Assembly (NCBI RefSeq): GCF_007004725.1
Contig: NZ_ML660164.1
Location: forward strand, 309,501 to 373,500
DNA: 64,000 nucleotides
Direction: 5' to 3'
Source of the DNA: Aliikangiella coralliicola
GTDB lineage: Bacteria > Pseudomonadota > Gammaproteobacteria > Enterobacterales > Kangiellaceae
Positions 49,312-53,690 of the stretch are shown in pieces. The translations under genes and the position numbers were made by a program. Positions within the stretch are counted from its first letter, which is position 1; every line of letters starts with the position of its first letter. Below the pieces are notes generated by a model that saw only the letters and a program-made list of their open reading frames with translations, made no database searches and was not told the origin of the DNA.

Positions 49312-49986
49312 CTAATCTTTTGAAGGTGTTATTTGCGCTTTCTCTGAGCCATTTTCGATTGCTTGAGTTGACACCATCAACAATCCTTTTTCTTGCCAAA
49401 GTTCAACCCTTAAACCTAACTTAAATCTAACCAATGGTTGTTCGCCATTTTCTACGTCAGGAATATCTGCGTGTTTCTGATGATCGTAGGGTACTTGATA
49501 CAAGGTGATTAACTGGTCAGTGGACTTAATGAAACGAAGTTGTGCGGCGGTCACTGTTTGGATAGAGCAATACCTTGCACCTAACAGAGAATCTTGTTCA
49601 CTAGTAAAATAACTTGAGTTGGTAATAGAAAAATCAAGTTTATCAAGTGACTTTCTAAGTTGAGCGTACTGATTGCTGCTTATGTCCAGTGGTTTCATTT
49701 TTAAATGATTTTTAGCGACCTCGCTGACAATCGCTGAGACCATTTTTTCCTGTTGATATTGCGGAAAATAGAAACTAAGGGTCAAGACACCTACCAGTAA
49801 CACCGCTGCACAGGACTTAAGCCAAGTTAGTTTTCCTGTATTTTGTGGAACGTCAGTAATCTCCGCTTTTTCGCTATTATTGCTTGATTCTATATTAGTG
49901 AGGTTTTGCAGTTGTTTAATTTGAGCGTCGTTGAGCTCAAACTCACAGTAAAAGTCTTTTACGGACTGTTTGACATTTTTAGTCAT
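49312..49986 (-). CDS. Single-pass anti-sigma factor of the buf operon
   Basis: A 224-residue protein. A cytoplasmic N terminus of about 50 residues is followed by one membrane helix (about 55-73, CAAVLLVGVLTLSFYF) and a periplasmic domain of about 145 residues. Its ATG overlaps the sigma gene stop by four bases (ATGA), the usual pattern for a membrane anti-sigma. The periplasmic part would be the sensor, and with bufferins downstream of the same control a copper or gold signal is plausible. It is the last gene of the operon. Family not recognised by motif; the call rests on position and topology. Confidence 0.78.
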   Translation of the reverse strand: MTKNVKQSVKDFYCEFELNDAQIKQLQNLTNIESSNNSEKAEITDVPQNTGKLTWLKSCAAVLLVGVLTLSFYFPQYQQEKMVSAIVSEVAKNHLKMKPLDISSNQYAQLRKSLDKLDFSITNSSYFTSEQDSLLGARYCSIQTVTAAQLRFIKSTDQLITLYQVPYDHQKHADIPDVENGEQPLVRFKLGLRVELWQEKGLLMVSTQAIENGSEKAQITPSKD

Positions 49987-50471
49987 GACTCTGCCTCCTT
50001 GACGCCGGAATTTCGATCCAGGCGCGTTATAATATCCCTGGCTTTTCGTTTAACTCGAAACAGGCGCGACAATATAGTGTTCCGAGGCGCTTGAAGTTCA
50101 TCGGCGATTTCTTGTGCGGTGTGTTCTTCGACAGCCCATAAAAACAAAACCTCACGCTCAAGCGTCGTGAGTTCATCCATTACCTGATGAATATAAACAT
50201 GGTCAATGACCATTGATTCTAATTCGTGTGTTGTTGAAAGTAATGGCGCATGGTCATCGAGGGGCTCGAATGGAATAATATTATTGCGCCGACATTGATC
50301 AATAAACTGGTTGCGCATTATTTTTCGAATGTACTTTAACGATACCGGTTCTCCCGGTTTTTTTATCAGATATTTTTCGATGGCAGATTGCACCAGATCA
50401 AAGGCATTGGCCTCGTTATTAGTTAACGAGATGCCATAGCGGTATAATTGATTGAGCATTTCTTTGTTCAT
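49983..50471 (-). CDS. ECF sigma factor of the buf operon
   Basis: A 162-residue sigma-70 family factor. Region 2 is NAFDLVQSAIEKYL with IRKIMRNQFIDQCRRN; region 4 is LTTLEREVLFLWAVEEHTAQEIADEL with RNTILSRLFRVKRKAR. It is the fourth gene of the bufA-bufB-bufC-sigma-anti-sigma operon, 29 bases after bufC. ECF factors next to bufferin genes are known to drive these operons, so autoregulation is likely. I could not define its promoter motif upstream of bufA. Confidence 0.9.
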   Translation of the reverse strand: MNKEMLNQLYRYGISLTNNEANAFDLVQSAIEKYLIKKPGEPVSLKYIRKIMRNQFIDQCRRNNIIPFEPLDDHAPLLSTTHELESMVIDHVYIHQVMDELTTLEREVLFLWAVEEHTAQEIADELQAPRNTILSRLFRVKRKARDIITRLDRNSGVKEAES

Positions 50472-50500
50472 GGCAACATCATCGTTAATAGACCTTGATT

Positions 50501-51382
50501 TTATTGATTGCTTCGAAATCTAGTTTCAATGTCTGGCAACCTGGGGGTAAACCCGTCAATCCACCCATGTTCAATTAATCGTGCTACAAATGTTGAGAGA
50601 TGATCAGCTTGCAAGGCAATATCTGATAAAGAATAATTTTGTTTGATTAAGTTTAGCAAGTCGAATTCTGCTTGTGAAACTTGCTTTATTTTAACTTTAA
50701 TCTGCGGGCGCTCCACTAACAAAAACATCCGTGAAGACTTACTTTGAACTGATTGTATAGACGGATCGGTTTCCGGCGAAAGCGTTTGTTCCACATTCAG
50801 CCTTAGCAGTGATGGTAAATCCCAGGCTGAGCTTAGCCAATTGATATCTGGAGACAGATTAAATGTAAGGTGGGCTTGTTGCTTGGGGCTCAGTTTTAAG
50901 AAGTCGTTCTGAGGCCAGGTCTTTCTTTTGTCCGCATAGTAGCTTTTCTGTAAAATCCAATCTAATCGCGCCACATCCATTAGTTGGGGAAGAGATTTCA
51001 GTCGCTGTTTCATTTTTGTTTTGTCTGTCTTTGCTGATATTTCCAAAGTGTAAATTTTTTTCTGAGTAAATTGGCCAATATACTCAGGAAGTTTTTCGGC
51101 AAAATTGTTATCGAGTTTTGCTACCGGTTCAACTTCGCTGATATAACATCGACATAGGACGGAAAAGTAGTAATCGCCAAGTAATGAATGTGTGTTGGAA
51201 TAAATGTTTCGTATCCAGGACTCAAGTCCGCCGATGACATTATTTCGGTAAATGCTAATTCGCGATTCATTGAAGGCATTATCAGGAACGATATCAGAGC
51301 CGGGAAAATCAGGTTGTAACAAATCCTCGTTAGGTGAAACGATTTGATTAAATAGCGTTGCTTGCCATTGCGCTAGTCGCAT
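50501..51382 (-). CDS. bufC: BufC-type DUF2063 protein, recognition partner of the MNIO enzyme
   Basis: A 293-residue protein. The N-terminal DUF2063 region (MRLAQWQATLFNQIV, then RISIYRNNVIGGLESWI) is typical of BufC. A C-terminal winged-helix-like part follows (about 215-285). In studied RiPP systems this partner binds the precursor leader and delivers it to the DUF692 oxidase. Its start overlaps the end of bufB by 10 bases, so translation is coupled. ATG start; no defect seen. Confidence 0.9.
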   Translation of the reverse strand: MRLAQWQATLFNQIVSPNEDLLQPDFPGSDIVPDNAFNESRISIYRNNVIGGLESWIRNIYSNTHSLLGDYYFSVLCRCYISEVEPVAKLDNNFAEKLPEYIGQFTQKKIYTLEISAKTDKTKMKQRLKSLPQLMDVARLDWILQKSYYADKRKTWPQNDFLKLSPKQQAHLTFNLSPDINWLSSAWDLPSLLRLNVEQTLSPETDPSIQSVQSKSSRMFLLVERPQIKVKIKQVSQAEFDLLNLIKQNYSLSDIALQADHLSTFVARLIEHGWIDGFTPRLPDIETRFRSNQ

Positions 51383-52296
51383 ATTTTAGGTTCAACCTTT
51401 GATTGGGCTTGTTTAATCATGCCTAGTGCTTTTTGTTGAATGGCGACTAGCGCTGAAAAAGTCGGAAGGTCGTTATCCCACTCAATTAAAGTAGGAACAT
51501 CATTTCTGAAATTCGCCAGGTAATACTGGTAAAGCGCCCAAACGGAGTCACTAGGTGCGCAGCTGTGAGAGTCAATTAACACTGAGTGATGCTGGTAGTA
51601 TCCCCCGAGATGAATTTCTCTTACTTTGTCATTGGGAATTTCTTCAAGATATCGATGAGCGCACCAGCCATGATTCTGGCTGGAAACATACACGTTATTG
51701 ATATCTAAAAGTAAATAACACCCTGTCAATTCAACTAGCTGTTTCAGAAAAGTGGGTTCGCTCATTTCATTGGAGGAGCATTGAATATACGATGAGGCAT
51801 TTTCAATTAAGATCGGTTGTTGTAGATAATCTTGTACCTGGGAAATTCGTGAGGCGAGGTGATTGAGCGCTTCCTCTGTGTAGGGGATTGGCAATAGGTC
51901 GGGGACTTGTTGGTTCGCGAAGCTGGAAAAGCTGCAATGTTCTGAATACCAACAGGCGTTTGTTGTTTCTAATACGTATTTCACTTTGGCAAGATAATCC
52001 CAATTAAGGGGATTAACTGAACCCAGTGACAAACCTACGCCATGTAAAGTTAGCGGGTATCGCTCTGCGATCCCTATTAGTGCTGCATTCACAAAGCCGC
52101 CGCGGGCAAACCAATTATCTACCAGCAACTCAAACCAGGGAACGGGATGTTCCTGGTGAATAATCTGATTGATATGGACTTCGCGCAAACCTAAGCCAAC
52201 ACTACCTGAGGCGATTGAGTTCGCTAAATACCGCGAACTCATTGGTAAAGATTCATTGAACTCATCTTGTTTTCGAGAATCAATTGCTATCTTCAT
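51373..52296 (-). CDS. bufB: BufB-type DUF692 multinuclear iron oxidase (MNIO)
   Basis: A 307-residue TIM-barrel oxidase. Metal ligands and conserved segments are visible: LTLHGVGLSLGS, WYSEHCSF, LIENASSY, LLLDINNVYVSSQNHG, EIHLGG, IDSH and LIEWDND. In characterised bufferin systems this enzyme, with mixed-valent iron and oxygen, turns cysteines of the precursor into thiooxazoles. It lies two bases after bufA and overlaps bufC. The N-terminal extension of about 30 residues before SVGLGLREVH is slightly longer than usual, so a later start is possible. Confidence 0.93.
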   Translation of the reverse strand: MKIAIDSRKQDEFNESLPMSSRYLANSIASGSVGLGLREVHINQIIHQEHPVPWFELLVDNWFARGGFVNAALIGIAERYPLTLHGVGLSLGSVNPLNWDYLAKVKYVLETTNACWYSEHCSFSSFANQQVPDLLPIPYTEEALNHLASRISQVQDYLQQPILIENASSYIQCSSNEMSEPTFLKQLVELTGCYLLLDINNVYVSSQNHGWCAHRYLEEIPNDKVREIHLGGYYQHHSVLIDSHSCAPSDSVWALYQYYLANFRNDVPTLIEWDNDLPTFSALVAIQQKALGMIKQAQSKVEPKICD

Positions 52297-52298
52297 GA

Positions 52299-52610
52299 CT
52301 AGCTTTTTGTTTTGTCAGGTTTTGCCGATGCAGACTTTGCCTTTGCGGGTTTTATTTTGGCAACCTTGCCGCCGACTATTTTTTCACAGGTTCCCAGTGG
52401 AACGTACACCCATTCATGTTTCGAGTTATCGATGGTCGCTTGCCCTGCGCAGTCATGCTTGCCGTTAAGTGCACCGCAGTCGTTTTTTCCTGCTTTAGCA
52501 ATACCTGCACACTTTTCCCAGTGAGTTGGCTGATCCGGAACTGCTTGAACACTCATTGTGCCAGTCAGGGCTGCAACACTGGCGATTGCCGTTAATACCG
52601 ATTGTTTCAT
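52299..52610 (-). CDS. bufA: Bufferin precursor peptide (DUF2282, BufA1 type)
   Basis: A 103-residue RiPP precursor. The signal peptide (about 1-23, MSVQA) is followed by the DUF2282 core with four cysteines at 34, 45, 54 and 75 in the family pattern ([37 protein letters not shown]). In studied BufA1 peptides the two inner cysteines become thiooxazoles, the outer pair forms a disulfide, and the product binds copper in the periplasm. After the core comes an unusual Lys/Ala/Pro-rich tail of about 20 residues. First gene of a five-gene operon. Confidence 0.94.
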
Positions 52611-52727
52611 GATGGTTTCCTATCGTTAGTTGATTGTCACTACTATCTAATAAACGAGTGGACGCCGAATTTGATTGCAACCAGTTTAATTTTTTTTGAT
52701 AAAATTCCAAATGGCTTTCAGCCCGTC

Positions 52728-53690
52728 TTACAAGCCGCAAGGAGAAGGCAAGGGAGGTGTGTGCTCCTTTACTTCGTCAATGAAGTTAATATTGTTTTGC
52801 CTGAATTGAGCGACGCGCTTTTCGACTTCCTTTGTGGTCAGCGCTACATTGCTTTGATGAAACACCCAATCAATATCTTGCTGGTATTGTCGCAATTCTG
52901 TTGAGTCGTAAGGGCGCCCCTCTGCTTCTTCTTCAGATTTAATCATAAACCACAGGTTAAAGTTAATTGACATGGCCACTTCTGGATAAACTTTTTCACT
53001 ATGCTTACCAATTGGCTTCCCGTCGACATAATAGCTGAGCTTGTCGTCGGCTACGGTTAAAACCAAGGTATGCCAGCCAGACAAACTGCCCTCGGTGCGA
53101 GTATATTCATTCACCTTTGTCCAGGGTTCTAATTGAAATGTTTCCCATGACACCGACCATATCGCCGGTGCTTTACCTTCTTCCCAACCGCCATTGCCAA
53201 GATATTCAAAGTCAGCTTCGCTATAGTCTGGATGCATCGGAGATTTCAGCGGACTAATTGTATAGAAGGTTTGAATGACTTCATCACCATCGGGGCCAAA
53301 AGTTGGCTCGTCACGAAAGTAAACTCTGGCCGCATAAGTGCCTTCTCGGTATTTCCTGGCATGACAAATTTGTGTATGACGAGTATTTTCTCCACTGCCA
53401 TCAGTTATTGAAGTCATTCTTAGAAAAGTATTCTTTTCATTCTCGTCGACTTGATGAAATGAAACGCCTTCAGTCGACCAAGTTGCTCCTTCCATACCGG
53501 GATGCCCAGGTTGTGTTCTTATTTTCCAATTGTTGTGGTAAAACGATTGGAGGTTAGTGTAACTTAAGTCATCAAAGAAAATATCGGACGACTTGGGTTC
53601 CATTTGCATGAATTTGGGATTTGAGTTACAGCTCGCCATTAATAAAACTGTTACAGGAAAGCATGCACGTAAAATACTATTCTTTCTCAT
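52728..53690 (-). CDS. GH16-like lipoprotein
   Basis: A 320-residue predicted lipoprotein: lipobox LLMASC with Cys21. The chain has a GH16/laminarinase-type jelly roll with the catalytic signature EADFE (Glu158, Asp160, Glu162), flanked by typical segments (GTYAARVYF before, LSGWHTLVLTVADDKLSYYVDGKPIG after). GH16 enzymes cut beta-1,3/1,4 glucans or galactans; this one would act at the outer membrane, and the exact glycan cannot be told. It lies 117 bases upstream of bufA on the same strand, but bufA probably has its own promoter in that gap. ATG start. Confidence 0.82.
   Translation of the reverse strand: MRKNSILRACFPVTVLLMASCNSNPKFMQMEPKSSDIFFDDLSYTNLQSFYHNNWKIRTQPGHPGMEGATWSTEGVSFHQVDENEKNTFLRMTSITDGSGENTRHTQICHARKYREGTYAARVYFRDEPTFGPDGDEVIQTFYTISPLKSPMHPDYSEADFEYLGNGGWEEGKAPAIWSVSWETFQLEPWTKVNEYTRTEGSLSGWHTLVLTVADDKLSYYVDGKPIGKHSEKVYPEVAMSINFNLWFMIKSEEEAEGRPYDSTELRQYQQDIDWVFHQSNVALTTKEVEKRVAQFRQNNINFIDEVKEHTPPLPSPCGL

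Follow-up and report, generated by a model that had tools for sequence, protein, structure and literature searches.

A Buf1 bufferin operon of Aliikangiella coralliicola with its own sigma factor, a putative anti-sigma of the RYCS type and a recurrent promoter

We analyzed a 64,000-nt stretch of the Aliikangiella coralliicola genome (contig NZ_ML660164.1, positions 309,501 to 373,500; hereafter the window), whose minus strand carries, from position 52610 down to 49312, the genes bufA, bufB and bufC, an extracytoplasmic function (ECF) sigma factor gene and the gene of a putative membrane anti-sigma with an RYCS motif. By sequence, this set is a Buf1 bufferin cluster, and we consider it rather probable that it is a self-regulating operon that senses periplasmic copper or thiol stress through a single cysteine of the anti-sigma, C140. 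The operon proved ordinary in its enzymes, mostly ordinary in the tail of its precursor and unusual in its regulator. Because such an operon carries its putative sensor and its promoter with it, and occurs also in named Shewanella and Pleionea strains, it would make the signal of bufferin operons testable by a simple reporter. The gene set, its recurrence as an operon, the promoter and the conserved cysteine and histidine described below are read directly from the sequences.

All five genes, which lie on the minus strand, were assigned. Specifically, bufA (52299..52610, 103 amino acids [aa]) encodes the DUF2282 bufferin precursor (PF10048, E = 5.9e-24), bufB (51373..52296) the MNIO maturase (PF05114, E = 2.1e-92; NF050167, 314.7 bits against a cutoff of 310) and bufC (50501..51382) the DUF2063 partner protein (PF09836, 44 bits against 27.2). 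The ECF sigma factor gene follows (49983..50471; Sigma70_r4_2, 35.8 against 25.7 bits; TIGR02937, 54.5 against 42.9 bits), and then the gene of the single-pass anti-sigma of the RYCS type (49312..49986, 224 aa), identified by homologue searches, a structure model and gene adjacency. The sigma gene falls marginally below the cutoff of the region 2 model (Sigma70_r2, 22 bits against 24); the pair was assigned to the ECF type on this score together with the TIGR02937 match, the adjacency of the two genes in related genomes and their own promoter motif. These results uphold a first-pass annotation, made from the sequence alone, which had read the five consecutive genes as a bufferin operon with its own sigma/anti-sigma pair; that reading is strengthened by a common promoter that the annotation had not seen. 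Its statement that the genes overlap holds for two of the four junctions, bufB/bufC (10 nt) and sigma/anti-sigma (4 nt), whereas gaps of 2 nt and 29 nt separate bufA from bufB and bufC from the sigma gene. Relatives of BufB in the PDB were 3bww, 8hci and MbnB; BufC and BufA had no significant match there; bufA retains all of the 95%-conserved columns of its group, bufC deviates in one, and BufC reached 26.5 bits against the HvfC model (cutoff, 142). The host genome of 7.04 Mb contains one DUF2282 gene, and DUF2282 occurs in 95 of the 370 genomes of the class.

To place the regulator pair, we used a protein search and a pattern scan. Homologues of the anti-sigma were found by protein search in 16 of 370 class genomes (host included) and in 2 of 40 family genomes, and a sigma gene adjoins the anti-sigma gene in all 16 class genomes. 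The pattern scan, which covered one genome per species and 84,980 species, yielded 80 named RYCS loci, both partners being readable in 75: 32 have the order bufABC-sigma-anti-sigma, 1 has bufA-bufC, 4 have a bufA-like gene only and 38 have none of these genes in place, although both the 80 and the 38 loci include several near copies, and three genomes are represented twice (L023/L044, L024/L050 and L029/L065). The five-gene order is not due to chance, as it is seen in 32 of the 80 loci, which were retrieved through the anti-sigma. Several variants of the operon were also observed. At L028 (genome G079) and L060, the order is bufA-bufC-sigma-anti-sigma and bufB is missing from the operon; two MNIO genes lie elsewhere in G079, so BufA may be modified in trans or may have lost its modification. 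At L067 (948-2495), a single open reading frame (ORF) was matched by both the BufB and the BufC profiles and is likely a natural fusion of maturase and partner. Finally, at L092, L102, L106 and L109, a bufA-like gene stands directly before the RYCS pair, and the sequence retrieved contains neither bufB nor bufC; the promoter described next is present at the last three.

An ECF-type promoter, TGCAATCAAA-N12-TCGTTTA (52651..52679, minus strand; first element 52679-52670, second element 52657-52651), precedes the start codon of bufA by about 40 nt. The 40 bufA leaders of this operon type gave the consensus TGCAATCAAA-N12-TCGTCTA, the general form across the set being TGCAATCAAA-N12-TCGTYTA. In leave-one-out scoring, the window site reached 27.8 and 34 of the 40 leaders at least 15 bits, a level attained by 1 of 800 shuffled leaders. 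Among the 38 non-bufferin loci of the same sigma/anti-sigma type, which were not used for building the matrix, 26 showed the site on the right strand no more than 2.2 kb upstream of the sigma gene, and there were no sites elsewhere in these loci. In comparison, 1 of 125 other bufA leaders, from 120 survey loci, reached 15 bits; this leader belongs to G337, which probably has one operon split by the assembly, since its bufA lies ~1.2 kb from a contig end and an RYCS gene starts another contig. The promoter, as judged from these sequences, co-occurs with this sigma/anti-sigma type, and it is most likely the sigma factor of the operon that reads it; a sigma-70 scan of the bufA leader returned no minus-strand site. 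With both regulator genes expressed from this promoter, the probable target of their own sigma factor, the arrangement would be the usual self-inducing ECF loop. The exact consensus matches the 7.04-Mb host genome once, before bufA, and no wider host regulon was found with this pattern. Five host sites had two mismatches, of which one is found 106 nt upstream of an ORF resembling an ABC ATPase (L327) and four are not before a sense gene; at up to three mismatches, 87 sites compared with 51 for the reversed control leave room for weaker regulon members, and a looser pattern gave 13 sites compared with 10 for the control. The window itself holds a second site, on the plus strand from 28198, which scored 15.0, at the threshold (shuffles gave 0.2 per strand).

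The anti-sigma has one hydrophobic span (residues ~54-76, by inspection and in the structure model), followed by a periplasmic part of ~148 residues (77-224; 49315..49758, minus strand), in agreement with the single-pass protein with a periplasmic domain of about 145 residues proposed earlier. It matched none of the curated Pfam and NCBIfam families. The survey PMC12452194 names a single anti-sigma for bufferin clusters, NrsF (PF06532), which was rejected as the identity of the window protein: there was no match at E = 1, while the same model found NrsF in L181 and L201, and NrsF has six transmembrane segments and two periplasmic cysteines, in contrast to the one span and one periplasmic cysteine of the window protein. 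No description of the RYCS anti-sigma was found in a search of open-licence papers, and within that literature it is a type that we have not seen described for bufferin operons. Two motifs, E(V/I)xxNH and G(G/A/T)RYCS(I/L), are common to all 17 sequences compared (16 loci and the window). The RYCS cysteine, C140 (codon 49567..49569, minus strand), is present in 17 of 17 and invariant in an alignment of 77 sequences that had been retrieved with a pattern containing RYCS; H94 of the ExxxNH motif (codon 49705..49707, minus strand) is present in 17 of 17 and in at least 90% of the 77. Further conserved residues around RYCS are G136, R138, Y139, S141 and A147. In 75 of the 77 proteins, the RYCS cysteine is the only periplasmic one, which makes the two-cysteine intramolecular switch proposed for NrsF impossible in those proteins. 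In a structure model from the 77 sequences (predicted local distance difference test [pLDDT], 86; predicted template modeling score, 0.69), two N-terminal helices are followed by a long helix that contains the membrane span and then by a beta domain (residues 132-209). Among solved folds, the C-terminal domains of RseB and MucB came nearest to it (six entries with Z = 6.6-6.8 over 80-89 residues; next entry, 5.2). We take the predicted resemblance as a lead; none of the Pfam families listed for the 77 relatives (25 of 26) was RseB-like, and the anti-sigma profile had nothing below E = 0.05 among PDB sequences.

In a tree of 87 sigma factors, in which a long-branch warning applies to the NrsF/DUF3379 end, the sigmas linked to DUF3379 and to NrsF formed separate supported groups. 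The RYCS-linked sigmas fell into a mostly bufferin side (46 rows, including 10 without buf genes and the diverged L236; support 93/97) and a side of 31 rows, mostly non-bufferin, of which 3 have a bufA-like gene (support 89/90), both at unstarred forks, and the window sigma paired with that of Pleionea (support 100/98). The sigma profile matched at 24 of the 120 survey loci (108 retrieved at class level and 12 at phylum level), a figure that is no census, as the profile was built from the RYCS-linked family and so under-counts distant sigmas, including many NrsF-adjacent ones. Two survey loci have a Pfam-confirmed NrsF; L288 and L289 were typed as NrsF from hydropathy counts only. At six loci, a Pfam-confirmed DUF3379 (PF11859) protein, single-pass by hydropathy, stands beside a divergent sigma gene, and its periplasmic histidine and cysteine are invariant, much like the conserved pair of the RYCS proteins. 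These proteins differ in lacking the RYCS motif and in the separate tree group of their sigmas, and the window anti-sigma did not match the DUF3379 model at E = 1; 18 of its 77 relatives did (best E = 2.8e-7), and a comparison of the RYCS profile (77 sequences) with DUF3379 gave P = 0.0008 over 17 columns, with cysteine aligned on cysteine (an earlier comparison was weaker). The two families are probably distant kin, as far as their sequences tell. No paper on DUF3379 was found in the open-licence literature. The pairing of DUF3379 and a sigma gene near bufA, at L230, L233, L241, L253, L261 and L265, apparently represents a further anti-sigma type at bufferin loci.

The wiring of the operon is well supported by the sequence comparisons. 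Its autoregulation in living cells, its signal and the residues that sense it are inferred, and so are the chemistry of BufA and its copper binding, these last two from published bufferins. At rest, the single-pass putative anti-sigma would keep the ECF sigma factor bound. Periplasmic copper or another thiol-reactive stress would be read by its RseB-C-like domain, most simply if Cu(I) or an oxidant reaches C140, its single conserved cysteine, possibly in concert with H94. The freed sigma factor would then transcribe bufABC-sigma-anti-sigma from the promoter above; BufB and BufC would modify the central cysteines of BufA, which, once exported by Sec, would bind periplasmic copper; and fresh anti-sigma would shut the loop. 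Thiooxazole modification and copper binding of BufA are expected by homology to published bufferins, which bind copper and are modified on central cysteines (PMC12452194). The cysteine at the RYCS place and an upstream histidine are kept in L236 (by eye), a member not selected by motif, and both residues are invariant in the six DUF3379 proteins beside other bufA genes, which supports a role for C140 and H94. Nevertheless, that C140 senses the signal directly, alone or together with H94, seems to us about as likely as not, while the wiring is much surer.

Several observations weigh against a copper- or thiol-sensing, self-regulating operon. The evidence base is sequence-level. Six of the 40 bufA leaders miss the cutoff (L042, L045 and L051, whose spacer is 1 nt longer, and L075, L083 and L092), as do 12 of the 38 non-bufferin loci (7 with less than 900 bp of upstream sequence and 5 true misses); bufB deviates in two of the 95%-conserved columns; cysteine conservation in the 80-locus set holds by construction, RYCS being part of the search pattern; and the likeness to RseB is below trusted levels (the Z scores given above, a best Foldseek E of 0.016 and another MucB entry at 4.7). 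Moreover, RYCS pairs without bufA adjoin thiol-redox genes, so copper may not be the signal. By eye, these neighbors are thioredoxin-like (L099, L103, L104, L108), DoxX-like (L090), rhodanese-like (L116) or other exported genes, and they favor a sensor that reads general periplasmic thiol or oxidative stress, such as disulfide stress or hypochlorite, instead of copper, with bufferin as one of several outputs. The control of a Haemophilus DoxX/DUF2063 cluster by an oxidant-responsive sigma factor (PMC7907618) and a related Microbulbifer MNIO cluster that is not copper-induced (PMC12538549) point the same way, but copper or gold elicits the response of both bufferins and gig operons (PMC12452194, PMC5413113), and a single cysteine cannot form a disulfide within one molecule; we hold this explanation to be somewhat unlikely. 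The first-pass suggestion that the periplasmic domain is a metal sensor is consistent with the lone conserved cysteine and near-invariant histidine, which fit thiol or oxidative stress equally well. It is also possible, though unlikely in our judgment, that the anti-sigma is released by regulated proteolysis once it has bound some other ligand or protein of the periplasm, as in RseA/RseB, C140 being structural. The nearest fold and the conservation of many other motif residues speak for this, but the operon has no separate RseB-like gene, and the lone cysteine and histidine are conserved in DUF3379 proteins too, which suggests chemistry.

In comparison with known systems, the operon resembles the Caulobacter sigF-nrsF and Cupriavidus gig Buf1 clusters in its DUF2282 precursor, MNIO, DUF2063 and ECF sigma factor (PMC12452194, PMC3511200), but its regulator genes stand at the operon end, and the Caulobacter sigma-F promoter is GTAACC-N16-CGAA. 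RseA/RseB and MucA/MucB likewise combine a membrane anti-sigma with a periplasmic sensor, whereas here anti-sigma and sensor-like domain are in one protein and the structural match is weak. HrsE of Haemophilus influenzae is an anti-sigma for a sigma factor that controls a DoxX/DUF2063 cluster, yet it is a 67-aa cytoplasmic zinc protein, and the regulator lies outside the cluster (PMC7907618). Acinetobacter SigAb-AabA-AabB is an autoregulated, copper-responsive ECF sigma with a membrane anti-sigma, but AabA has 107 aa and a separate periplasmic partner, and the promoter is GTCAAC/CGTT (PMC12153292).

More broadly, and tentatively, the RYCS proteins may form a new class of one-piece periplasmic sensors, in which an RseA-like anti-sigma is joined to an RseB-like domain with a Cys/His switch for Cu(I) or thiols, and which, with their sigmas and one promoter code, would control the bufferin operons of many gammaproteobacteria as well as other exported thiol-redox genes, the latter across several phyla; we regard this as possible but not as the probable case. 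It would point to another bacterial way of sensing metal or thiol stress outside the inner membrane, and the promoter code, which ties bufferins to other exported thiol-redox genes, would predict further members of a periplasmic metal- or thiol-stress response. An example would be an exported protein of ~135 aa with the pattern DDPSIKG...YVSCADF and one invariant cysteine, which was observed before non-bufferin RYCS sigma/anti-sigma genes at L089 (4831-5241), L087, L091, L096, L098, L100, L105, L107, L110 and L119; a copy in L034 had no Pfam match.

BufA has four core cysteines (C34, C45, C54 and C75) and, by inspection, a signal-peptide-like N terminus (lysine, a hydrophobic stretch and VQA before VPD), which is alike in most of 39 aligned sequences. 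A Lys/Ala/Pro-rich tail of about 20 residues past the last core cysteine had been singled out as unusual; the tail measures 28 residues, of which 15 are the normal ending of the clade, GGxVAxxKPAK, and 13 (residues 91-103; 52302..52340, minus strand) are extra. In an alignment of BufA tails, KPAK was typical of the clade, being present in 28 of 38 precursors of related operons (with 0-5 residues after it) compared with 7 of 111 in the class survey, so only the final 13 residues remain uncommon. Tail length in the 38 precursors of the pattern-scan loci had a median of 15.5 and a maximum of 20 residues. The class survey holds 9 of 111 precursors with at least 28 residues past the last core cysteine, their Lys/Ala/Pro share being at most 0.31 compared with 0.57 in the window BufA; 2 of 172 precursor hits, in which the four-cysteine pattern is missing, were dropped from the tail counts. 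In the BufA model, which is a modest test with a mean pLDDT of only 66, residues 82-88 form a strand and residues 92-103 fall below 50, and the extension (91-103) is predicted to be disordered. A functional tail for export, localization or metal binding is highly improbable: the extension is long (13 residues after KPAK compared with a maximum of 5 in 41 KPAK precursors, some genomes being counted twice), but KPAK itself is usual in the clade, and the extension is of low complexity, predicted disordered and missing from the Pleionea BufA, which is 79% identical. The tail as a special feature is thus mostly rejected; nothing points to a role for the extension, and no special function is needed to account for it.

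Two further genes were noted. Directly upstream of the operon, a lipoprotein-like gene with a weak GH16 match (window 52728-53690, minus strand; 25 bits against a cutoff of 22) ends ~50 nt before the operon promoter. A second MNIO gene of the host lies in another cluster (L314, C7:109861-110640), with a repeated Cys-rich, lipoprotein-like precursor that, by eye, has a Buf2 look.

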